A stretch of 33,046 nt of DNA from Clostridia bacterium (GTDB lineage Bacteria; Bacillota; Clostridia; Christensenellales; Borkfalkiaceae), in NCBI GenBank assembly GCA_029061465.1, contig JAIDRY010000150.1:1-33046 (forward strand), written 5' to 3'. Below the pieces are notes generated by a model. That model did not search any database. It saw only the letters and a program-made list of their open reading frames with translations, and was not told where the DNA came from. This document shows, piece after piece, positions 3,628 to 30,945 of this stretch (position 1 is its first letter; every line of letters begins with the position of its first letter). The position numbers and the translations under genes were made by a program.

Positions 3628-3656
3628 TTGCATTTTCCCCCGAAACGTGATATATT
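3628..3656 (+). promoter_or_regulatory. Putative promoter for the beta-helix lipoprotein
   Basis: TTGCAT - 17 bp - TATATT in GTGATATATTAT; the same core occurs at 5785-5813. Confidence 0.5.
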
Positions 3657-3708
3657 ATTTTGGCTACAATTATTAATGCAAAAAGCTGCGTTCCGACGGG
3701 AGGAAAAT

Positions 3709-5766
3709 ATGAAATTTAAGAATGTATGTGCCGTTATTATTTCTGCACTTTTGGCTGTCGGTGCGACCGCCTGCGGCGTCGGAAATCCCGACGACGATAA
3801 CACCGTTGATAATTCGAATGCAAATTTTATAATCAACGGAAATACCGCTACCTTACGTTGGGATAAATATGACGGCGCTAACGGTTATTCAATCGAGAAA
3901 GCGTCTTCGCGTTACGGCAATTACGAGTATCTGGATTACGTGGACGGCGCTTCCGTCGCGGAATACGTAACGGGCGACGTTACCGCTTATTACAGAGTAA
4001 CGGCTTTTACCGCAAGCGGAGAAAGGGTAATAGGAACGTACAGTTACGAAACCGAACTGTTCGGAAACAATACGTACATATATGCTCCCACGGACGACGC
4101 GGAAAAGATACAGGAAGATTTCGACGCATTTTACAAAATGACGTTTGACGAAAGCAACGGCGTTGCGCGCGGCGAGTTCCGAAGCGATAGGTTTGCCGCA
4201 CTGTTCAAAGCGGGCAGTTACGACGTAAGTGCTGACGTCGGATACTATACGGCAATTTACGGTTTGGGACAAACTCCGTCCGCGGTAGAGTTGAGCGGAA
4301 TGAACGTAACCAGTCCGGTATCGTTATGCAACTTTTGGCGTACCGCGGAAAATCTTGCAATTAAGAATAATGTTACGTGGGCGGTTTCGCAGGCTACGAG
4401 CTTGCGTCGGGTTTACGTAAAAGGAAACCTCGATTTATGGGGCGCAAATATAAGAGAGAACAGCACGTCGGGCGGCTTTATTGCTGATGTTAAGGTGGAC
4501 GGCGCTGTATCGTCAGGAACTCAACAGCAATTTTTAACGCGCAACTCACACTTCGGAAGTTGGTCGGGCGGCGTGTGGAATATGGCGTTTGTGGGAGTAG
4601 AAGGCAATAATATACCCGATAATAAATGGCTTGGCGCGGGTAGCAATTTCACGAATATCCCGCTTAGCGGAGCGATGCGCGAAAAGCCGTTTCTAACGTA
4701 TGACGAGGAGCTTGGATACAGCGTGTTTGTTCCTGATGCAACGGAAAATACGCGAGGAATAAGTTGGGGCGGAACGGCTATGCCGTCCGGAAGCTACCTG
4801 CCGCTTGACGAGTTCTATGTTGCGCGGAGCGACAGAGATACGGCAAAAACAATAAACGCAGCGCTTTCGGCAGGCAAAAATCTTATTTTGACGGCGGGGA
4901 TATACGAGCTAGACGCTCCGCTCGAAATTGGGCGCAACAGCACCGTCGTTCTCGGTTTGGGGCTTGCCACTTTGCGGGCTTCCGACAAAAATACGGATAC
5001 GCTTATGCGTGTTTCCGCCGTGAATAACGTTTGTATAGGCGGGTTGCTCTTCGATGCGGGCAAGCATACGGAAACGCTGTTGGAGGTCGGCTCTTCGGCT
5101 AAGGAGACTGCGAACGCAAGCACTCCGGTTACACTCAGCGATTTGTTTTTCAGAGTAGGAGGGTGGACGCAAAGCGCCGTTTCGGTGAAAACGTGCGTCG
5201 TGATTGACGCCGACCACGTGATAGGGGATAACTTATGGATATGGCGTGCGGACCACTCGGCGCTTCGGATAGGCAATTCGGGATTGTTTGAGGGGGTTGC
5301 CTGGGATTTGAACCCTGCCGATACGGGAATTATCGTAAACGGCGATAACGCTACGTTTTACGGTTTGTTTGTAGAGCATTTCCTGAAATATCAGACGGTA
5401 TGGAACGGTAACGGCGGAACGACTTATTTTTATCAGTCGGAGCTTCCGTACGACGTTCCCGATAGGGCGAGTTGGTCGCCTGACGGTACAGCAAACGGCT
5501 ATGCAAGCTATTACGTGTCGGAAAACGTAAAAACACATACGGCGTATGCGCTGGGCGTATATTCTTTTTTGCGCGATGCCGCCGTTACGCTTGACAGTGC
5601 TATCGTATGCCCTCAAACCGACGGAATGTCGTTTGCCCACATAGTAACGGTATGGTTGAGCGGAAACGCTGATACGGCTGTTAAAAGCATTATCAACGGT
5701 ACGGGCGAAGAAGCAAACAAGGGGCACAGAGTTTCCGTATTGGAAAGTTACGCTCCCGAAAAATAA
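3709..5766 (+). CDS. Secreted lipoprotein, right-handed beta-helix-like family often annotated 'adenylyl cyclase' in actinobacteria; N-terminal FN3-like region
   Basis: ATG at 3709 preceded by GGGAGG (the ORF caller's 3628 start is upstream of this and overlaps the promoter); MKFKNVCAVIISALLAVGATAC lipobox; SGGVWNMAFVGVEG, MREKPFLTYDEELGYSVFVP, INAALSAGKNLILTAGIYEL, TGIIVNGDNATFYGLFVEHF. Confidence 0.75.
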   Translation: MKFKNVCAVIISALLAVGATACGVGNPDDDNTVDNSNANFIINGNTATLRWDKYDGANGYSIEKASSRYGNYEYLDYVDGASVAEYVTGDVTAYYRVTAFTASGERVIGTYSYETELFGNNTYIYAPTDDAEKIQEDFDAFYKMTFDESNGVARGEFRSDRFAALFKAGSYDVSADVGYYTAIYGLGQTPSAVELSGMNVTSPVSLCNFWRTAENLAIKNNVTWAVSQATSLRRVYVKGNLDLWGANIRENSTSGGFIADVKVDGAVSSGTQQQFLTRNSHFGSWSGGVWNMAFVGVEGNNIPDNKWLGAGSNFTNIPLSGAMREKPFLTYDEELGYSVFVPDATENTRGISWGGTAMPSGSYLPLDEFYVARSDRDTAKTINAALSAGKNLILTAGIYELDAPLEIGRNSTVVLGLGLATLRASDKNTDTLMRVSAVNNVCIGGLLFDAGKHTETLLEVGSSAKETANASTPVTLSDLFFRVGGWTQSAVSVKTCVVIDADHVIGDNLWIWRADHSALRIGNSGLFEGVAWDLNPADTGIIVNGDNATFYGLFVEHFLKYQTVWNGNGGTTYFYQSELPYDVPDRASWSPDGTANGYASYYVSENVKTHTAYALGVYSFLRDAAVTLDSAIVCPQTDGMSFAHIVTVWLSGNADTAVKSIINGTGEEANKGHRVSVLESYAPEK

Positions 5767-5784
5767 AAATTTTTATAATACCTC

Positions 5785-5813
5785 TTGAAAAAGTAAAAAT
5801 ACTGTGATATATT
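5785..5813 (+). promoter_or_regulatory. Putative promoter for GH16 and possibly downstream genes
   Basis: TTGAAA - 17 bp - TATATT with TG extension, in GTGATATATTAT. Confidence 0.55.
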
Positions 5814-5893
5814 ATAAATGCTATATGTTGCATACGTTAATATTGTCTGGCAGGCAAACGTACCGTTATATGTTTACGTGAAAACGGGGGATT

Positions 5894-7300
5894 ATGAAGG
5901 GTAATTTTTTCAGAAAAACGATTATCGGTCTTCTGACTGTGATTTTTGCGTTTGCATTTAGCGGTTGCGGACTTTTTGACTCCGTAAACGGCGGGGACAA
6001 TCATAAGCCTGCCGTATACATATCTCAAAACGAAATAACGCTTGCCGTGGGCAATACGGTTCAGCTACATGCGGTTTCCACTGACGGAAGCGCCGTTGTA
6101 TGGGAATCGAGCAACAGCGGAATTGCTACCGTTGCAGACGGTTTGGTTACGGGCGTTTCAAAAGGCGAGGCTGTAATTATGGCTTCTACCGATTCCGTAA
6201 TGGCGGTCTGTACGATAAAAGTAACGGGTGCGGTTGTAGCGCCCCCGCACGGTGAAACGCTTGTGCTTTCGCTTGCAGAGTTAAGTCTGGAAGTCGGCGA
6301 TACCGTTAAGCTGGTTGCAAAATCGTCGGTAGACGGCGCCGAAATAATCTGGGACTCCTCAAATAAAACGGTAGCGAACGTTGCGGGCGGTATCGTTACG
6401 GCGCATACGGCGGGCAAAACGACTATTACCGCAAATACCGGAACGGCAGTGGCAAGCTGTGAAATAACGGTTACCGATAAGGACTTACAAGGTTTGCAAA
6501 AGCCCGGATATAAGCTTGTATGGAACGACGAATTCAACGGTAATTCACTTGATACGCAAAAATGGAACTACCAAACGGGCACGCGGGACATTTATCACGG
6601 TTACGATACGCAGGTTTGGAACTGGGGTAACGGCGAGCTTCAGTATTACACGCAGGATTCGGTAAGGGTTTCCGACGGCTCTCTTATAATCACGGCGTCG
6701 AAACAATCCGTCGAAGATAGGGAATACAAGTCGGGTAGAATTCTCACCCGCGACCTTGCTTCCTGGACGTACGGTTACTTCGAGGCGAAAATAAAAACTC
6801 CTACGGGGGACGGTATGTGGCCTGCATTCTGGATGTTGCCGCAACCCTCCACGTATGCGAATGTGGAAAACAAGTACGGCGGTTGGCCGTATAACGGTGA
6901 AATCGATATTATGGAGGCAAGGGGGAGACTGCAAAACGTAGTAGATACTACTTTGCATTTCGGCCCTGTGAGCGACGGAACCTGGCAGAGCGATTATAAA
7001 ACAAGCTCGAAAACTCTTTCCTCGAATACCGACAGGTGGCATACGTATGCCGTAGATTGGACGCCGACTTATATCGCGTGGATTATCGACGGAACGGAGA
7101 CCTTCCGAGTTTCGAGCAATCACTGGTATTCGCGTTCGGCGGCGGCTGACGGCAACGAGTCGGCTCCGTTCGACCAACCGTTTTATATAATTTTAAATCT
7201 TGCGGTCGGCGGTCAGTACGACGGCGGCGTGGCTCCGTCCGCGTCGTTCGGTTCCGCAAGTATGTACGTAGATTACGTACGTGTATACGAAAAGGCATAA
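5894..7300 (+). CDS. GH16 family endo-beta-1,3-glucanase (laminarinase-like) lipoprotein with two Big_2 Ig-like domains
   Basis: FAFSGCG lipobox; two Big_2-type repeats (VWESSNSGIATVADGLVTGVSKGEAVI; IWDSSNKTVANVAGGIVTAHTAGKTTI); GH16 catalytic motif NGEIDIMEARG; FWMLPQ; LNLAVGG. Confidence 0.93.
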   Translation: MKGNFFRKTIIGLLTVIFAFAFSGCGLFDSVNGGDNHKPAVYISQNEITLAVGNTVQLHAVSTDGSAVVWESSNSGIATVADGLVTGVSKGEAVIMASTDSVMAVCTIKVTGAVVAPPHGETLVLSLAELSLEVGDTVKLVAKSSVDGAEIIWDSSNKTVANVAGGIVTAHTAGKTTITANTGTAVASCEITVTDKDLQGLQKPGYKLVWNDEFNGNSLDTQKWNYQTGTRDIYHGYDTQVWNWGNGELQYYTQDSVRVSDGSLIITASKQSVEDREYKSGRILTRDLASWTYGYFEAKIKTPTGDGMWPAFWMLPQPSTYANVENKYGGWPYNGEIDIMEARGRLQNVVDTTLHFGPVSDGTWQSDYKTSSKTLSSNTDRWHTYAVDWTPTYIAWIIDGTETFRVSSNHWYSRSAAADGNESAPFDQPFYIILNLAVGGQYDGGVAPSASFGSASMYVDYVRVYEKA

Positions 7301-7372
7301 ATTTTTGCCGTATTAATTACAGGTGAAACCTACGAAAAGTAGTAATTTCATATAAAAGTTATGGAGGAATAA

Positions 7373-9097
7373 ATGATGTTAAAGAAAGGCAAATTGGGAA
7401 AACTTTGGGCGCTTGCTTGTTCTATTCTTGCGTGCGTTCTCATTTTCTCTGTATCGGCTTGTGACACGGATAAGCCGAAGGAAGAAGTAGACGTTACGCT
7501 CAGCAAAACCACCGCTGAATTGGTTGTCGGCGAAACGACTACGGTATCCGTAACCTCGGCAACGACCGCGGAGATAGAGTGGAGCGTTGACAAACCGGAA
7601 ATCGCTACAGTTGAAGGCAGCGGCACGGGCAACAAGCTCGGCACCGTTAAGGCAGTTGCGGCAGGTACCGCAAAGGTTACCGCTAAGGCGGGTGATAAAA
7701 CGGCTGTTTGTACCGTTACGGTTACCGCTCCCGCAGAACCCGAAACGGTTACCATAAAACTCGGCGATACGGCTGTGGGCAGCGACGCACAATCATTACA
7801 CGTCGGCGATACCCTTGCGCTTACCGCTACGGCTTCAAAGGGTAGTACCGTTACGTGGGAAAGCAGCAAGACGGACGTAGCAACCGTATCAAACGGCACC
7901 GTTACGGCAGTAGCCGCAGGCGAAACGGTTATCAAGGCAAAGGTCAGCGACAGCGAATATGCTACAGTTACCGTTAATGTTATCGCACCCACGAACGTTG
8001 AGTACGGCGGCGAAGCTGAATTTGATATCGGTTGGCGCTATTGGAACGGCGACGGCGACGCTGTCGTAGCTTCCTGCGTAAACTATTCCGATAACAACGA
8101 AGTTCAGATTAAGTATACTATGGCCGCAGGTCAGCCTTACAGCGTACAGCTTTTCTATAAGGATAAGACGGCAGGCACAGACCATAACTTGTCTCTTACC
8201 GTTGTTTCCCCGATAGCGGCAAACATAACAGTTAACGGTGCTAAGCAGGAGCTTGTAGTAGGCGAAAACAAAGTAACCGTTGAAAACTATACAGGTTCTA
8301 CTATCGTAGTTTGTTTCGGCGCATGGGGACCTCCTGACCAACCTGTTTTCGGTACCGACTTATTGTTTGTATTTAAGGATATAGTAATAACTTCCAATGC
8401 GGACACGGAGCTTGTTGCCCCTTCGTTCAGCTATGCGGCTGATACCAAAATTATTACTATCACCGATGCAACTAACGCGGCTGAAAAAGTAGAAAAGTAC
8501 GTGCTCGGCTTGTTTGCCGACGCTGCGGACGAATCTCCCGCTTACACGGTTGACGTTACTAGCGGCGAGGCAGTTAATTTGTCTACGATTCCTTCCGGTA
8601 CGTACGTGCTTAAGTTAAGAGCGGTAAACAGCTCCGCTATGGTCATCAATTCCGGTTGGAGTACGACAACTGCGGACCTTGTATGGGCTAACGACAAGAC
8701 CCCGCTTGAATATAGCACACAGGATAACGTTGTTGCAGGTTCAAATACGTGGTATTACTGGAACCGTAACTGGGATATCAATTGTCATGCTGAGGAATGC
8801 TATATACAAGGCGACACCATCAAAGTTGTCGGATTAACTGATAACTTAATGGAAAACTGGAGCTTCCAGCTGTTCTATAAAGGCGAAGCTGGCAAGAAAC
8901 TTACTATGACGGTTACTGCTCAAAACGCCGGTTCAATCACCATTGGCGGCGTAGTATATGCGCTTGAAGCGGGCGTAGCTCAAGAGGTAGTGGTTAACGA
9001 TATTACGAATCTTGGAATACAATTCGGCGGCGGCGAAGGTGGTGCTGCGAACAACCTTCAGGGCGACGTTACTTTCAGCAATATCGTAATTGAATAA
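7373..9097 (+). CDS. Big_2-containing lipoprotein with two putative carbohydrate-binding modules
   Basis: VSACDTDK lipobox; two Big_2 domains; duplicated C-terminal module with YWN...QLFYK; RBS GGAGG. Confidence 0.8.
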   Translation: MMLKKGKLGKLWALACSILACVLIFSVSACDTDKPKEEVDVTLSKTTAELVVGETTTVSVTSATTAEIEWSVDKPEIATVEGSGTGNKLGTVKAVAAGTAKVTAKAGDKTAVCTVTVTAPAEPETVTIKLGDTAVGSDAQSLHVGDTLALTATASKGSTVTWESSKTDVATVSNGTVTAVAAGETVIKAKVSDSEYATVTVNVIAPTNVEYGGEAEFDIGWRYWNGDGDAVVASCVNYSDNNEVQIKYTMAAGQPYSVQLFYKDKTAGTDHNLSLTVVSPIAANITVNGAKQELVVGENKVTVENYTGSTIVVCFGAWGPPDQPVFGTDLLFVFKDIVITSNADTELVAPSFSYAADTKIITITDATNAAEKVEKYVLGLFADAADESPAYTVDVTSGEAVNLSTIPSGTYVLKLRAVNSSAMVINSGWSTTTADLVWANDKTPLEYSTQDNVVAGSNTWYYWNRNWDINCHAEECYIQGDTIKVVGLTDNLMENWSFQLFYKGEAGKKLTMTVTAQNAGSITIGGVVYALEAGVAQEVVVNDITNLGIQFGGGEGGAANNLQGDVTFSNIVIE

Positions 9098-9121
9098 TTC
9101 AAGAGGTATCTAACTCATAAT

Positions 9122-9151
9122 GACGGGGCGGCGGCTTGTCGCTGCCCCGTC
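9122..9151 (+). terminator. Strong GC-rich hairpin between the Big_2 lipoprotein and GH3 genes (partial terminator or mRNA stabiliser)
   Basis: GACGGGGCGGCG-GCTTGT-CGCTGCCCCGTC, 12-bp stem with one G-U, followed by a weak T-rich tract. Confidence 0.6.
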
Positions 9152-9210
9152 TACTTTCTTACAAATTATAATTTTAGTTTCAACATTCAAAAACAAGGAG
9201 ACAATGCAAT

Positions 9211-12198
9211 ATGTCTAAAGGAAGTGGCGGAATTTTTAAACGCAGTAAGGTAAAACTAATTGTTTTATCGGTAGTTGCTGTTTTTTGTGCCATTCTTATG
9301 GTCGCCGGTAATATTGTTTTAAGTATGTTAAACCCCATTCTTCACAGGGTATTTTCTGGCGACGGTATCAGCGTTTCAGGTTCCTCATCGGTGCTTTCCG
9401 AGGCGGACAAAGTCGTACGCAAAACCGCGGAAGAGAGTATGGTGCTCTTATACAATGAGGACGGCTATCTCCCTCAGCGCAATCTTAAAAAAGTAAACCT
9501 GTTCGGCTGGGGCGCAACCGACGGCGGCTTTCTTCTTACGGGCGGCGGCAGCGGCGGCGCTACGATACTCGATAAGGACAGAAACGGTAACGACCGTATA
9601 AAGGTAGACCTTACCGACGCATTTACCGAGGCTGGTATAGAATACAATACTACGCTTACCAATGATTACGTAGGTTTCAGCAGCTTTGACGCCGATTACC
9701 GCAAAGGCGGTACTACCGGTGCGAACGTTGCGGAAAGCCTCAAAAATCCCGATGCGGGCTGGTACACAGCCGAGCGCATGAATCAGGCGAAGAATTATTC
9801 CAAAACCGCCGTTGCGGTTATCAGCCGCTGGGGTGCTGAAAACGCGAGCAGTCAGGAATTGAAATCTCTTAGCGGCTATGCGGACGGTTCGTTTTTAGAG
9901 CTTACCGCAGAAGAAACAGCCATGTTCAACGCGCTTGAAACGCATCAGTTCGACGTAATCGTCGTACTCAACGTTTGCAATAATATTGAACTCGGTTTTA
10001 TCGAGAATTATAATTGCATAAAGGCGTGCATTTTTGCTGGCATTCCCGGTCAGTCGGGCGCAATTGCTATACCCGAAATTATTAACGGTACAATCAATCC
10101 TTCGGGCAGAACGAGCGATACTCTCGCTTATGACTATCAAACCTGCGACCCCACGTACATAAACGCCGTGAGGGCGGGCAACGATATCGTGTATCAGGAA
10201 GGTATCTACTTCGGATATAAGTGGTACGAAACTGCCGACGCGGAAGGTTTCTTTGAAGCGCATGGCACTTCGTATGATAAAGTAGTGCAGTTCCCGTTCG
10301 GTTACGGCCTCTCATACACAAGCTTCGATTGGAAACCCGATTTTTCCGAAGTTGTGTCGCTTACCGAAAAGGGAGAGTATAAGGTTACTGTAAAGGTAAC
10401 TAATACGGGCTCGGTTGCAGGCAAGGACATAGTTCAGCTTTACGGACACGCACCGTATACTAACGGCGGAGTGGAAAAGGCGGAACGCGTACTTCTCGAC
10501 TTTGTAAAAACGCCGCTTATCGAGCCGGGCAAATCGGAAACGGTTACTCTTTCATTCAGCGCGTACGACCTTGCTTCCTACGACGACTACGGCAAGAATA
10601 ACGGCAATCATACGGGCTACGAGCTTGACGCAGGTTCGTACAGAATTTCCGTTATGAAAAACGCACACGAATATAAGCACGAGGAGCCTGTTGAGGGCGT
10701 AAACGGAGACTATAAAGATATCGGTCTAGGTAACCAAATCGTTTATGACAAAGACCCTGTTACGGAGGCTTCCGTAGTAAACCGTTTTACAGGAGCCACG
10801 GCTTACGCTTCCTGCCCGATAGACGGCAAAGATAATATTTCGTATCTCTCACGTGCGGACCACTTTGCCAATTTCCCGATAAATGCGGCAACCCGCAGCG
10901 GCGGCACGCCGACCGTGGAGCAGATTAAATCGGCAAGTAAGGCGTTGTACGACAGTAACAAGGTCAACGCGGGCGTTCAATATGGACAGAACGCAAATAT
11001 GTACCTCGTCGGCACAAAGAACGAAGACGGCAACGTTGAGAGAGTTTCTCTCAGCACGTTGCAGGGTGAAGGTGGTTCTTCACAAGCTCTTTCTTACAAT
11101 AGCGTTATTCTTGAGTTCCTTATGGAAGACTACAACTCCATGCTTTGGGATTCTCTTTTAAGTCAGGTAACGCAGCAGGAAACGCGCGACCTTATCGGTA
11201 AAGGCGGTTTCCAGACTGTAGCCCTTTACAGCGTAGGCAAAACGTATTGTAAGGATAAGGACGGCCCCGCAGGCTTCAATAACAGCGTTGACGACGTGCT
11301 CGAGGCAAAGAGTGACCAATATACGCTGTTTTGCAGTGAGTCGCTTACGGGTTGTAGCTTCAACAAAGAAATTGCATATTCGATAGGCGAGGCACAGGCA
11401 AAGATAGCAGGCTTTGTAGGGTTCCAGGGCTGGTACGGTCCCGGCGTCAATCTTCACCGTTCGGTTTATAATTCGCGCAATTACGAGTATTACAGCGAGG
11501 ACGCCGTTCTCAGCGGCAAGCTCGCGGCAAGTACTATTTCCGCCGCTTACGATAACAATATGTATTGTTATCTCAAACACTTTGCCGTAAGCGAAGCGGG
11601 CAGCAATCCTAAGAACCTAAACACGTGGCTAACCGAGCAGGCGCTCAGGGAAAGCTATCTGCGCCCCTTTGAAATTGCGGTAAAACACGGCAAAGCAAAC
11701 GCTATGATGAGTGCATTCAATAATGTCGGCGGAGTGCTTTCGGGCTATAACTACGCATTGCTTACTGGCGTTTTGCGTAACGAGTGGGGCTTTAAGGGCA
11801 GCGTGATAACCGACTGGTTTATGAAGGACGGATATATGAACGACTACGAAGCAGGCGTGCTTGCGGGCAACGACTTATGGCTCAACGGTACGTTCAACGA
11901 CCCCGCAACCCTCAACCTCGACGATAAATACGTAGCCTGCGCCGCACGTCAATCTGTTAAGAATATTTTATACACTTATATAGACACTAACCTCACGGCA
12001 AGCGACGTTATTGTAAATGCCGCGCCTCATTCGGCGCTTTTGGACGCATTGTGGGCTATTGCCAACGTTGTATTGTCGCTCGGTTTTATCGCGTGCATAG
12101 TATTTATCGTTTTACCGTTTACCCGCAAAGACGTAAATAAACAAATACCCGACAACGCAACTGCCGCAGAAGATAACGACAGTCCGTCGGCAGCATAA
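9211..12198 (+). CDS. GH3 family beta-glucosidase-like enzyme with permuted domain order, membrane anchored at both ends
   Basis: N-terminal TM; GH3_C-like region (TAEESMVLLYNEDGYLP), FN3-like region (KVTVKVTNTGSVAGKDIVQLY), then GH3 catalytic region (DGPAGFN, GPGVNLHRSVYNSRNYEYYSED, LKHFAVSE, GFKGSVITDWF); C-terminal TM. Confidence 0.92.
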   Translation: MSKGSGGIFKRSKVKLIVLSVVAVFCAILMVAGNIVLSMLNPILHRVFSGDGISVSGSSSVLSEADKVVRKTAEESMVLLYNEDGYLPQRNLKKVNLFGWGATDGGFLLTGGGSGGATILDKDRNGNDRIKVDLTDAFTEAGIEYNTTLTNDYVGFSSFDADYRKGGTTGANVAESLKNPDAGWYTAERMNQAKNYSKTAVAVISRWGAENASSQELKSLSGYADGSFLELTAEETAMFNALETHQFDVIVVLNVCNNIELGFIENYNCIKACIFAGIPGQSGAIAIPEIINGTINPSGRTSDTLAYDYQTCDPTYINAVRAGNDIVYQEGIYFGYKWYETADAEGFFEAHGTSYDKVVQFPFGYGLSYTSFDWKPDFSEVVSLTEKGEYKVTVKVTNTGSVAGKDIVQLYGHAPYTNGGVEKAERVLLDFVKTPLIEPGKSETVTLSFSAYDLASYDDYGKNNGNHTGYELDAGSYRISVMKNAHEYKHEEPVEGVNGDYKDIGLGNQIVYDKDPVTEASVVNRFTGATAYASCPIDGKDNISYLSRADHFANFPINAATRSGGTPTVEQIKSASKALYDSNKVNAGVQYGQNANMYLVGTKNEDGNVERVSLSTLQGEGGSSQALSYNSVILEFLMEDYNSMLWDSLLSQVTQQETRDLIGKGGFQTVALYSVGKTYCKDKDGPAGFNNSVDDVLEAKSDQYTLFCSESLTGCSFNKEIAYSIGEAQAKIAGFVGFQGWYGPGVNLHRSVYNSRNYEYYSEDAVLSGKLAASTISAAYDNNMYCYLKHFAVSEAGSNPKNLNTWLTEQALRESYLRPFEIAVKHGKANAMMSAFNNVGGVLSGYNYALLTGVLRNEWGFKGSVITDWFMKDGYMNDYEAGVLAGNDLWLNGTFNDPATLNLDDKYVACAARQSVKNILYTYIDTNLTASDVIVNAAPHSALLDALWAIANVVLSLGFIACIVFIVLPFTRKDVNKQIPDNATAAEDNDSPSAA

Positions 12199-12223
12199 AA
12201 TTTTGATAAGGAGTGAAATAATA

Positions 12224-14008
12224 ATGAAAAAAATGATACTCAGAAAACTGTGTACGGCAGTTTGCGCTCTGCTAACTTTCGTTTTAGTTTTCTCTTTCGC
12301 GGCTTGTAATCCCGAAAGCACGGACGATAGTATTACCCTGAATACGAATTTCCTGACGATTGACGTCGGTTCAACGTCGCCTTTGCTCGTTACGTCGACT
12401 GTAACCGAAGACGTCGTATGGACTTCGTCGGATGAGTCTAAGGTAACCGTAGAAGGAAGTGGCAGCGGCAAAAGAATGTGTATGGTCAGCGCGGTAGCCA
12501 ACGGCACCGCTACGGTAACGGCAACTTCGGGTGATAAATTCGCAACCTGTTCGGTTACCGTAGTTGATGCGGAAACGGTTACTATTACGCAGAACGGTTC
12601 CGCGGCTTCGTCCGTTTCTCTTAGCGGAAAAGGCGCTACCGCACAGCTCACCGCAAAATCTTCCAGAGACCATGATATAACCTGGGAAACTAATAAACCT
12701 ATGATTGTTTCCGTATCCGATAACGGTTTGGTAACGGCGGTAGCCGAAAGCGGCACCGCAGTACTTACCGCTCGCTGCGGGCAGCATACCGACGTGTCCC
12801 AAAACGTTACGGTCGTTGTAGGAACTGGTGTTGACGCCGCTTATAATCTCGAACAGGGCGACGAAAATAACAGCTTCGGCAACAAAAACTCCAACGATAA
12901 CCCCGGCCTTTGGATGTACTGGAATCAGTTTGGCAACGTAGCCAGCGCTACTTATGAAAACGGAGTGGTTAGCTTAACGACTTCCGGAGTTGAAGAGGGC
13001 GCGTGGTGGTATAACGTTCAGTTATTCTACACGGCAACTGCCGAAGATAAGGACACCAAAGGTAACGCTCTAAAGAGCGGCACCATGTATCAGGTTACGT
13101 TCGATATCGATACGACGATGGGCGGCGGTATCACCGTAAACGGTTATCCGCTTCAGCTGAAAGAGGGCGTGAATCACTGCACAGCTTATTATATGCATTC
13201 GGTTACCGCGTTCTCGATGCAACTCGGAATTGACGGCGTGGGTTGCGACCTTACCAATGCAACATTGAAGCTTTCCAATATCAAATGGACGCCTGCGGAG
13301 AAGGTGAACCTCACTGCGCCTTCGTTCAGCATTACGAATAACGTTATTACCATTAACGATAATAACCCCGCAGGCAGCGTAGGTAGATACATTCTTGTTT
13401 TGTATAATGATGCAGGTACTTCCGTCGGAAGCGTAAAGGTTACGAACGGCGCTACCGTAGACACGTCGAAAATTCGTCCCAACGGCACGTATATCGGGAA
13501 ACTGATTGCGAAAGCCGCAAACGAGCAATTTATCAATGCTCCCGAAGCTACCTCACAGAACGCTTCCGTGGTCGTAAATAACGAGCATGTTGCATACACG
13601 ATTGGAAATGGCGGAGAAGCAACTGCGCTTGATGAAATGGGCACGTGGACTTATTGGACCGAAAGCTGGGTTGCTTTCAATGGTACGGTTACCGACGAAA
13701 AAGCGAACATTACGTTCAGCAACAATACCGGTAACTGGTACGATACGCAGTTATTCTATAAGATGCCCGGTAAGAATGTAGGCGATTCGTACTCCGTTAA
13801 GCTTCATTTTAATAACATTCCCAAAGAGGGTAGGGTTTCGGTCAACGACGTTGTGTACACCTTAAAGCAGGGCGACAACGTGATAGATTTGAATATTACC
13901 GAATCGGGCGGAAAGTCGATACAAGTTATTTTCGGCGTAGTGAACGAAAGCAACAGACAGGATTTCGGTACGCTCACCAATCTTGAGCTGTATATCGAAT
14001 TAGTATAA
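12224..14008 (+). CDS. Paralogous Big_2-containing lipoprotein with two putative carbohydrate-binding modules
   Basis: ATG at 12224 with AAGGAG at ~12208; FSFAACNPE lipobox; same architecture as 7373..9097; module motifs YWNQFG...VQLFYT and YWTESW...TQLFYK. Confidence 0.8.
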   Translation: MKKMILRKLCTAVCALLTFVLVFSFAACNPESTDDSITLNTNFLTIDVGSTSPLLVTSTVTEDVVWTSSDESKVTVEGSGSGKRMCMVSAVANGTATVTATSGDKFATCSVTVVDAETVTITQNGSAASSVSLSGKGATAQLTAKSSRDHDITWETNKPMIVSVSDNGLVTAVAESGTAVLTARCGQHTDVSQNVTVVVGTGVDAAYNLEQGDENNSFGNKNSNDNPGLWMYWNQFGNVASATYENGVVSLTTSGVEEGAWWYNVQLFYTATAEDKDTKGNALKSGTMYQVTFDIDTTMGGGITVNGYPLQLKEGVNHCTAYYMHSVTAFSMQLGIDGVGCDLTNATLKLSNIKWTPAEKVNLTAPSFSITNNVITINDNNPAGSVGRYILVLYNDAGTSVGSVKVTNGATVDTSKIRPNGTYIGKLIAKAANEQFINAPEATSQNASVVVNNEHVAYTIGNGGEATALDEMGTWTYWTESWVAFNGTVTDEKANITFSNNTGNWYDTQLFYKMPGKNVGDSYSVKLHFNNIPKEGRVSVNDVVYTLKQGDNVIDLNITESGGKSIQVIFGVVNESNRQDFGTLTNLELYIELV

Positions 14009-14025: not shown

Positions 14026-14061
14026 AAAAAAAAGGAAGTTTGTTTAAACTTCCTTTTTTAT
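14026..14061. terminator. Bidirectional terminator between convergent genes
   Basis: AAAAAGGAAGTTT-GTTT-AAACTTCCTTTTTT with A- and T-tracts on either side. Confidence 0.85.
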
Positions 14062-28800: not shown

Positions 28801-30945
28801 ATGAAGAGTAAAAAAATTATCGGTGGTATACTTGCGGCTTCTGTTGCGGCTGCCGCAGTACTCGGCGGTTGTTCACAGATATCGTCAAACCAGACGGCTG
28901 ATATGAATCAGGTTTTGGCTGAAATTAACGTTACCAACGCCGCGGCTATCGACAAAAATTTAAAAGAATACGCGGATGCGGTAGGTACCTCAAAGGTAAT
29001 AAAAAGGGAACTCGTAACGTATTTTATTAACGCGGGTTCAAACTATATCAACAATTACGGTTGGTCGTATAATCAGACTTTTACCTATTTTATGGACCAA
29101 CTCGTTGATAACGCAGTTCTCGTTCAGTACGCAACCTTGTATCTTCTGAAGGACAAGGCTGCACGCGATAATCAGTCCGCCGCAACCGTTATTTCGGAAT
29201 ATAATTCAAAGCCCACAAAGGTTGAAAAGTATAAATATCTTTTGGGTGAAGATTCCGACGACGTTAAGATAGCTACCTATACGCTTATGAAAGCTATAAA
29301 CAACGCTATCGACAGGAAGGAAAAGAAGAACGACAGCAGTTCTTCGTCGGGCGAGGGCACCCGTTCAACCCCTTCGGGCGTAGATACGGAAAAGGATAAT
29401 TACTATCCCAAAGATAAGGACGGTAAACTTAACTACAACGTATACACCGGTTACGAGAAATATCTTCTCAGTCAAAGCGGCGCTTACAAGGATGACGCTG
29501 TCAAAGGCACCTCTCGCGTAAGTAGAATAAGTGCTTATATCGACTTTTTGGATGATCTCAGTTCGCTCGGTTATAACCTCGTTAACAAAAACGAGGAAAA
29601 CATCCGCGACGTGTTATCTTTAAACTACATTCAGGAAGAGCTTGAAACCCAGCTTGAACAGCGTATACTTAACAAGTATTACAATATGTTTGAAGCGGAA
29701 AAAGAAACTGAGCTTGTTAACGCAGGGAAGGGTAAGTATTCTTATATCAATTCCGTATATAATGACCTCCTCGATTATCAAAAATCCGCATACGCTACTG
29801 AAAGCGCGGTAAGCTCGGCTCTCGGCAACATGTCTGATTCCGAGTTCATTCTCTACACGCCGGACACTTCCGACGAGGGCACTTTCGGCTACGTCTACAA
29901 TATATTGCTTCCTTTCAGCGCTTCGCAGAGTGCAAGGCTTACCGAGCTTCAATCTCTCTACAAAGACGAAGATTTGGACGGAGGCTACAAGCCCGAATAT
30001 TATATTGCAAGAAATAAACTTTTAAAACAGATTACTACAACCGACCAGCGTTCGGCTTGGTTCAACGGTGAAAACGACTACGCCTTTAAAGCGGATGACT
30101 ATTATAAAGGTGAGGGCGCAAGCGGCTGGTTGTTCTTCGAAAACAATATAACAAATCCCGATAGCTACGAAGCTCTTTCCAAGTATTACGGCAAGTATTC
30201 GTATAAAGGTATGGTAGTTGAAAAGGAGAAAGACGGCGGTTATATCCTCGTTCCCGACAAGCTTACCATTGACGATATGCTTAAAGAATTTATCGGCTAC
30301 GTAGACTACGCTACCGGTACCAGTAACAGTAACTTCTCTAAAAACGCAAACTACTACGACCTTTCAAAGGATACCCTTTATAAGGACGAGGACGGCGACG
30401 ACAAGATAGATTATAATAACTTTATCTACGCGAAAGGTAAGCTCGACCTTGAAGGCTCCGAAGCGCAGATAAGGGCAAGCCTGTTGTATACAGGTGAGGA
30501 TAACACATATTATAATGCACTTTCCGCCGTTAACGAGCTTCAATATGCGTATACAACCGATACGGCTGTGCTTTCACAGTATATAGGCTATTCGGTAGAC
30601 GCGGGCGACACCAGCTATATTAAGGAATTTGAATACGCCGCACACGAGGCAATCAAGGGCGGTGCAGGTAGCTGGGCTGTCTGCGCAGGCGATTACGGCT
30701 GGCACTTGATTTACGTAACGTACACCTTCGACAATACTGGCGTTGCGCAGTATACTCCCGATTGGGAGGCTAACGTAGATAAAAAAGGCACATTCGAAAA
30801 CCTTTTCTATGAAATGGTTAAGAGCAAGAACATCAGCGATATTTCCACTACAAGAAGCACTCAGATAATCAAGGAATTCAAATCCGACAATACTGTAACT
30901 AAGTGGCAGTCAAGGTATCAGGATTTACTCGATATTCAAAACTAA
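28801..30945 (+). CDS. Large lipoprotein, possibly a divergent PrsA/SurA-like foldase
   Basis: AAAVLGGCSQ lipobox; C-terminal AAHEAIKGGAGSWAVCAGDYGWHLIYVTYT resembles the end of a parvulin domain; located after mfd. Confidence 0.55.
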   Translation: MKSKKIIGGILAASVAAAAVLGGCSQISSNQTADMNQVLAEINVTNAAAIDKNLKEYADAVGTSKVIKRELVTYFINAGSNYINNYGWSYNQTFTYFMDQLVDNAVLVQYATLYLLKDKAARDNQSAATVISEYNSKPTKVEKYKYLLGEDSDDVKIATYTLMKAINNAIDRKEKKNDSSSSSGEGTRSTPSGVDTEKDNYYPKDKDGKLNYNVYTGYEKYLLSQSGAYKDDAVKGTSRVSRISAYIDFLDDLSSLGYNLVNKNEENIRDVLSLNYIQEELETQLEQRILNKYYNMFEAEKETELVNAGKGKYSYINSVYNDLLDYQKSAYATESAVSSALGNMSDSEFILYTPDTSDEGTFGYVYNILLPFSASQSARLTELQSLYKDEDLDGGYKPEYYIARNKLLKQITTTDQRSAWFNGENDYAFKADDYYKGEGASGWLFFENNITNPDSYEALSKYYGKYSYKGMVVEKEKDGGYILVPDKLTIDDMLKEFIGYVDYATGTSNSNFSKNANYYDLSKDTLYKDEDGDDKIDYNNFIYAKGKLDLEGSEAQIRASLLYTGEDNTYYNALSAVNELQYAYTTDTAVLSQYIGYSVDAGDTSYIKEFEYAAHEAIKGGAGSWAVCAGDYGWHLIYVTYTFDNTGVAQYTPDWEANVDKKGTFENLFYEMVKSKNISDISTTRSTQIIKEFKSDNTVTKWQSRYQDLLDIQN

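Follow-up and report, generated by a model that had tools for sequence, protein, structure and literature searches.

The described systems closest to the locus considered here are the Bacteroides 1,3GULs, beta-1,3-glucan loci of the Sus-type polysaccharide utilization locus (PUL) class (PMC7157763), and the mixed-linkage glucan locus of the gut Firmicute Blautia producta, which imports the oligosaccharides freed by its GH16 enzyme (PMC10318527). Single components have counterparts in the exo-acting GH55 enzyme SacteLam55A and in GlyA1, a permuted GH3 glycoside hydrolase from gut Firmicutes. Glycan use by uncultured gut Clostridia has mostly been guessed from single-gene annotation. Here we analyze a 33,046-nucleotide stretch of DNA (the window) from a Coproplasma-like gut Clostridia bacterium (GCA_029061465.1, contig JAIDRY010000150.1), which is contig C58 of a metagenome-assembled genome (MAG) of 1.73 Mb in 254 contigs, 81% complete. 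Positions 3628–14008 carry five intact genes, all co-directional, as the earlier note on this DNA had reported, and on sequence evidence we consider it likely that they constitute a surface-saccharification operon for beta-1,3-glucan. The features are as follows (coordinates in the window, strand, description and basis).

3709–5766, + strand: lipoprotein of family GH55 (start set by homologues and ribosome-binding site; phmmer match to 4pew; active-site mapping)
5894–7300, + strand: GH16_3-type, laminarinase-like lipoprotein with two Big_2 domains (Pfam GH16, PDB match, motif)
7373–9097, + strand: predicted glycan-binding lipoprotein 1, with two Big_2 domains and two CBM4-like modules (Pfam, module hidden Markov model, profile, structural model, Foldseek)
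9122–9151, + strand: GC-rich intergenic hairpin with a weak U tract (13-pair stem; z = -4.4 against shuffles; relatives)
9211–12198, + strand: permuted-domain GH3 with a predicted transmembrane (TM) segment at each end (Pfam, PDB alignment, hydrophobic segments)
12224–14008, + strand: predicted glycan-binding lipoprotein 2, paralogue of lipoprotein 1 (Pfam, module hidden Markov model)
14028–14059, + strand: Rho-independent terminator ending the gene set (14-pair stem with T-rich tail; z = -3.8)

The first and fifth open reading frames (ORFs) open at 3628 and 12203, and their likely starts, judged by ribosome-binding sites and by the starts of homologues, are the ATG codons at 3709 and 12224. 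Genes 1 to 4 are separated by stop-to-start gaps of 127, 72 and 113 bases, and genes 4 and 5 by 25 bases (counted to ATG 12224). Given these short gaps and the strong terminator at 14028–14059, we infer that the five genes form a single operon, read as one transcript. The products of genes 1, 2, 3 and 5 all have a lipobox-type cysteine after the signal peptide.

Gene 1 had been described in the earlier note as encoding a beta-helix-like lipoprotein; the protein, which had been left unassigned, can be placed in GH55. Its product has no match in Pfam or NCBIfam. A phmmer search against PDB aligned residues 182–695 (numbered from the ORF opening at 3628) with SacteLam55A (4pew) at E = 4.9e-108, and 212 of 478 aligned residues, covering most of the catalytic region, are identical. 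The protein consists of a signal peptide with lipobox, an Fn3-like region and the GH55 catalytic region at about 182–695. Active-site residues whose roles have been described for SacteLam55A (PMC10637969) are largely kept: the general acid Glu502 with its partner Tyr505, the relay residues Gln174, Ser198 and Glu480, the subsite -1 residues Trp446, Asp449 and His481, and the aromatic block Phe152, Trp444 and Trp446 (SacteLam55A numbering). The relay/subsite residue Thr149, which is Glu in the fungal enzyme, corresponds to Leu233. Leucine also occupies this site in the two closest relatives and in some of the paralogues; threonine is found at the paralogous loci L087–L089. The replacement makes activity less sure and leaves the family similarity standing; we take gene 1 to encode a GH55 beta-1,3-glucanase, most likely exo-acting like SacteLam55A, with its activity slightly in doubt.

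The Big_2-GH16 lipoprotein that the earlier note saw in gene 2 is recovered by Pfam (GH16, E = 2e-19, 70 bits against a cut-off of 22; two Big_2 domains). Its best PDB match is the laminarinase 3iln (E = 1.9e-49), and the bulged catalytic motif ExDxxE, here E336-x-D338-x-x-E341 (EIDIME), is invariant in 17 homologues. Placed by its nearest structures, the enzyme appears to be of the GH16_3 type and laminarinase-like. The presence of such a lipoprotein together with GH55 makes beta-1,3-glucan the likely substrate, which lends support to the earlier proposal that the locus binds and degrades this polymer at the cell surface. One could instead suppose a broader beta-glucan system, in which the main natural substrate would be glucan of mixed linkage (beta-1,3/1,4) from cereals or plant walls, the GH16_3 a generalist endo-glucanase and the GH3 an enzyme acting on beta-1,4 products. 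Such breadth has precedents, since mixed-linkage glucan is also a substrate of BuGH16 and BtGH16 from the 1,3GULs (PMC7157763) and lichenan one of GlyA1, which has a preference for cello-oligosaccharides (PMC5104943); moreover, most of the related cassettes have no GH55 at the locus, and two of the CBM4 matches discussed below are cellulase modules. However, GH55, a family described for beta-1,3(/1,6)-glucans, is part of the operon both in the window and in its closest relatives, and the best matches of the GH16 are laminarinases, so that we regard a mainly mixed-linkage diet as improbable.

It should be mentioned that the same genome encodes another GH16 lipoprotein, 814 aa long (L068, G000:C218, 750–3194), adjoined by a further GH16 fragment at a contig end.

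Genes 3 and 5 are paralogues, in agreement with the earlier description of two Big_2 lipoproteins with repeated modules. Both encode a signal peptide with lipobox, two Big_2 domains, a CBM4-like module, an Fn3-like spacer and a second module; the modules, of about 140 residues, lie at residues 204–342 and 440–574 of the gene 3 product and at 211–365 and 462–598 of the gene 5 product (ORF from 12203). According to a module hidden Markov model (HMM) built here, homologues in relatives contain from one to seven of them. A profile of 41 modules matched structures of family 4 carbohydrate-binding modules (CBM4), namely 3p6b (4e-6, over a short stretch), 3k4z (1e-4) and, over nearly the full length, 1gui, the module of the Thermotoga laminarinase Lam16A (7e-4). 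An AlphaFold model of a single module (predicted local distance difference test, pLDDT, 91.7; predicted template modeling score, pTM, 0.87) had as its best Foldseek matches the surface glycan-binding protein B (SGBP-B) of Bacteroides thetaiotaomicron (7kwb and 7kwc, both at about 1e-4, the best at 9.8e-5) at moderate TM-scores of about 0.5, followed by CBM modules, with cupins also listed. The two-module region had been modeled as one piece as well; this gave a pTM of 0.52 and uninterpretable Foldseek matches, and the single-module model was used in its place. Judging from profile and model, the modules appear to be distant relatives of CBM4 and may bind glucan. A cut-off of E <= 1e-6 placed them in 14 of the order's 297 genomes; a sample of the phylum, comprising 399 genomes, added seven more, which scored less strongly. 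The modules point to a likely new CBM family, or to a distant CBM4 branch missed by Pfam.

Some lipoproteins of this CBM family in related loci reach 1500–1800 aa, with six modules in L072 (4058–8557), seven in L076 (163–5010) and one among other domains in L080 (6224–11677).

The two-TM GH3 of the earlier note is confirmed in gene 4 by Pfam and by hydrophobic segments at residues 14–32 and 950–968, and we add that its domain order is permuted: PF01915 (C-domain, 77–336), PF14310 (Fn3, 407–483) and PF00933 (TIM barrel, 705–872). The GlyA1 subfamily has the same order, and 5k6l is among the top PDB matches. Residues D868 and E210 align with D242 and E458 of 2x40, which we take to be the catalytic nucleophile and acid/base of that enzyme, and both are invariant in 32 GH3 sequences. 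Basic residues precede the first hydrophobic segment and follow the second, a topology that would place the catalytic part outside the cell. Among homologues of at least 900 aa in the fetched loci, 30 of 32 have TM segments at both ends. GH3 homologues are numerous in each genome of the same genus (1.1–2.8 Mb) and often stand beside lipoprotein genes; the two-TM architecture thus looks ordinary for the group.

The earlier note had named the lack of a conserved neighborhood in relatives as one ground for rejecting its reading; gene order is in fact kept there. Genome G049 (L054/L070) has the five genes in the same order, with protein identities of 62, 57, 60, 75 and 51%; conservation of order at 51–75% identity is not expected by chance. 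A second relative, G009, has a GH55-GH16 pair at a contig end (L086) and a CBM lipoprotein-GH3-CBM lipoprotein set on another contig (L055), which is consistent with the same five-gene order interrupted by a contig break; G049 shows it whole. A core of GH16, CBM lipoprotein and GH3, shared by many MAGs of related gut Clostridia, was found in L056, L058/L071, L059/L073, L072, L074 and L077, and contig ends cut it short in L057/L075, L079, L081 and L082. L071 comes from Candidatus Coproplasma avistercoris, and genome G033 is placed in the genus of the window. Pairs of GH55 and GH16 genes recur at two paralogous loci (L087 and L088), a Bacilli MAG from the rumen (L078) has a looser version of the cassette with GH5, and L060 is an exception, with GH16 and the lipoprotein in the absence of GH3.

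A locus of this composition could in principle serve a purpose other than nutrition, such as attack on glucan-walled organisms (fungi, oomycetes) or remodeling of the cell's own surface glycans, and mycoparasites do have GH55 enzymes that attack fungal walls (PMC12590764). Against such a role, an exo-acting surface glucosidase combined with binding lipoproteins fits a pathway for nutrients, the L074 cassette has a gene for a ROK-family kinase nearby (the window's genome has one ROK gene elsewhere), and toxin or lysis genes are absent from the five; we consider it very improbable.

At three related loci, gene pairs for a regulator and a sensor-like protein directly follow the cassette (L072, 11967–14100; L071, 14674–16792; L077, 15285–17420). 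The L072 pair encodes a LytTR response regulator and a GHKL-domain protein, and no such pair occurs in the window. These pairs suggest signal-linked control in the relatives concerned.

Between genes 3 and 4 we found a conserved hairpin (9122–9151), with 13 GC-rich pairs and a poor U tract. A hairpin is present at the same gap in L070, L055, L071, L073, L074, L076 and L056, making eight of nine loci with the window included; L072, where the gap between the CBM lipoprotein and GH3 genes measures 30 bases, has none. The z-scores ranged from -2.4 to -6.5 across six gaps tested. Stem sequences differ in the more distant loci, and the alignment is too gappy for pair counting and was not used as evidence of covariation. 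Hairpins of -18 kcal/mol or below follow CBM-lipoprotein genes in 10 of 12 gaps (8 of 10 after removal of duplicates), compared with 15 of 42 other gaps (Fisher p about 0.007, or 0.015 without duplicates), in a small test with mechanical ORF calling and a threshold picked after the data had been seen. Gaps preceding CBM genes contain no such hairpin (zero of seven). A dispersed repeat was considered as the origin and rejected, the window-type sequence occurring once in the window's genome. In cellulolytic Clostridia, internal terminators with long GC-rich stems and few U residues follow genes for solute-binding proteins (SBPs) and raise SBP over permease (PMC9045158); for the cellulosome, a similar outcome through RNA processing has been reported (PMC4423207). 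The hairpin is thus a candidate internal terminator, 3'-stabilizing stem-loop or processing site. By analogy with the SBP terminators it probably favors genes 1–3 over the gene for the membrane GH3, so that more binding protein and glucanase than GH3 would be made.

The earlier note had remarked on the lack of a sugar transporter or SusCD pair in the locus. Gene content confirms this, and no transporter was recognized in the related cassettes examined. Import through the phosphotransferase system (PTS) finds no support, PTS_EIIC having zero matches in six genomes, and the window's genome showed no BPD_transp_2 permeases. That genome does encode two SBP_bac_1 proteins and gives 15 BPD_transp_1 matches. 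One SBP gene (contig C76, L094) has permease, ATPase and alpha-amylase genes as neighbors, and the second SBP (contig C53, L095) has no assigned sugar specificity. Transporters were sampled by family, with major facilitator superfamily (MFS) proteins and sodium symporters outside the search, and about one-fifth of the genome may be missing; the statement that there is no dedicated importer therefore holds for the locus only.

These data bear on the last step of the pathway, in which, as in Blautia, oligosaccharides might be taken up by an unlinked ATP-binding cassette (ABC) importer and the GH3 would trim residual products. This version overlaps with surface saccharification in all but that step, and the C53 protein could supply its SBP. 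Nevertheless, neither the locus nor its relatives have a linked importer, the C76 importer suggests starch by its neighboring alpha-amylase gene, and the GH3 is an outside enzyme by predicted topology and a conserved partner in the cassette. We therefore regard import of oligosaccharides as possible but rather unlikely.

Under surface saccharification, the two multi-module lipoproteins would use their CBM4-like modules, carried on Big_2 stalks, to keep the polysaccharide at the membrane's outer face; of the two lipoprotein enzymes, GH16_3 would cleave internal beta-1,3 bonds and GH55 would trim chain ends. The doubly anchored permuted GH3 may then turn the released oligosaccharides into glucose next to the membrane, and glucose or short oligosaccharides would enter through an importer encoded elsewhere in the genome. 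Several observations weigh against this reading. The change of Thr149 to Leu suggests that the GH55 enzyme may be impaired or altered; the modules fall below the Pfam gathering cut-off for CBM_4_9, with scattered weak matches, and their Foldseek TM-scores are just about 0.5; some relatives have a GH3 homologue without the cassette (L064); and no importer for the released sugars emerged among the transporter families sampled. In addition, GlyA1, the permuted GH3 that has been characterized, does not act on beta-1,3-glucan or laminarin (PMC5104943), and the specificity of the GH3 studied here is accordingly drawn from its context.

A bolder reading, which we hold to be somewhat less likely than not, is that a distinct Gram-positive strategy is repeated across Coproplasma-like Clostridia with many such GH3s in their genomes: full saccharification at the outer face by doubly anchored permuted GH3s and expandable lipoproteins of one to seven CBMs, with no dedicated importer and with a terminator-like hairpin that sets the proportion of binding protein to membrane glucosidase. 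For a lineage seen mostly through MAGs, the locus offers a whole testable pathway by which beta-1,3-glucan from dietary yeast, fungi, algae or callose might be used. It also raises the question whether digestion completed at its own membrane could spare a Gram-positive cell the need for a dedicated oligosaccharide importer. Glucose, if freed outside, may be shared by neighbors, which would bear on cross-feeding.

Elsewhere in the window, a BspA-type leucine-rich-repeat lipoprotein is encoded at the edge (18–2030, - strand), followed by a homologue of the sporulation protein YunB (2154–2819, + strand), by which the lineage may keep sporulation genes. A 714-aa lipoprotein-like protein with no Pfam match is encoded downstream of an mfd-like gene (28801–30945, + strand). 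An XRE-type regulator gene 3' of the operon was set aside as its regulator, being convergent, and neither Rfam families nor tRNAs were found in the window.

Comparison with the described systems revealed that: (i) the operon would work like a Bacteroides 1,3GUL (PMC7157763), yet it is not a Sus-type PUL, having neither a SusC/SusD pair nor a hybrid two-component regulator, with GH55 in place of GH158 and a membrane-stapled GH3 in place of a periplasmic one; (ii) it shares with Blautia producta (PMC10318527) a Gram-positive gut Firmicute host and a cell-anchored GH16 endo-glucanase, but Blautia, equipped with an ABC importer and a GH94 phosphorylase, completes the breakdown in its cytoplasm, whereas no linked importer or cytoplasmic phosphorylase was found in the operon, none was recognized in the related cassettes, and the GH3 is predicted to be extracellular; (iii) gene 1 has the active site of SacteLam55A except for the residue at Thr149, which is Leu, and differs in being a lipoprotein with an N-terminal Fn3-like region and in not keeping Tyr194 and Trp196; (iv) gene 4 resembles GlyA1 (PMC5104943; 5k6l) in its C-domain/Fn3/TIM-barrel order, gut Firmicutes origin and catalytic residues, and differs in its two terminal TM segments, the word transmembrane being absent from the GlyA1 paper; (v) the hairpin shares with the SBP-gene terminators (PMC9045158) a GC-rich stem, a weak U tract and a position between genes for an extracellular binding protein and a membrane protein, here a CBM lipoprotein and a membrane glycosidase, there an SBP and a permease. 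In the literature searched, which did not cover most subscription journals, we found no description of a two-TM permuted GH3 or of this five-gene operon. Each of the enzyme families is known. The way they are put together looks new, as do the divergent CBM lipoproteins and the hairpin; this assembly, which recurs across related gut bacteria, appears to be a variant not yet described.

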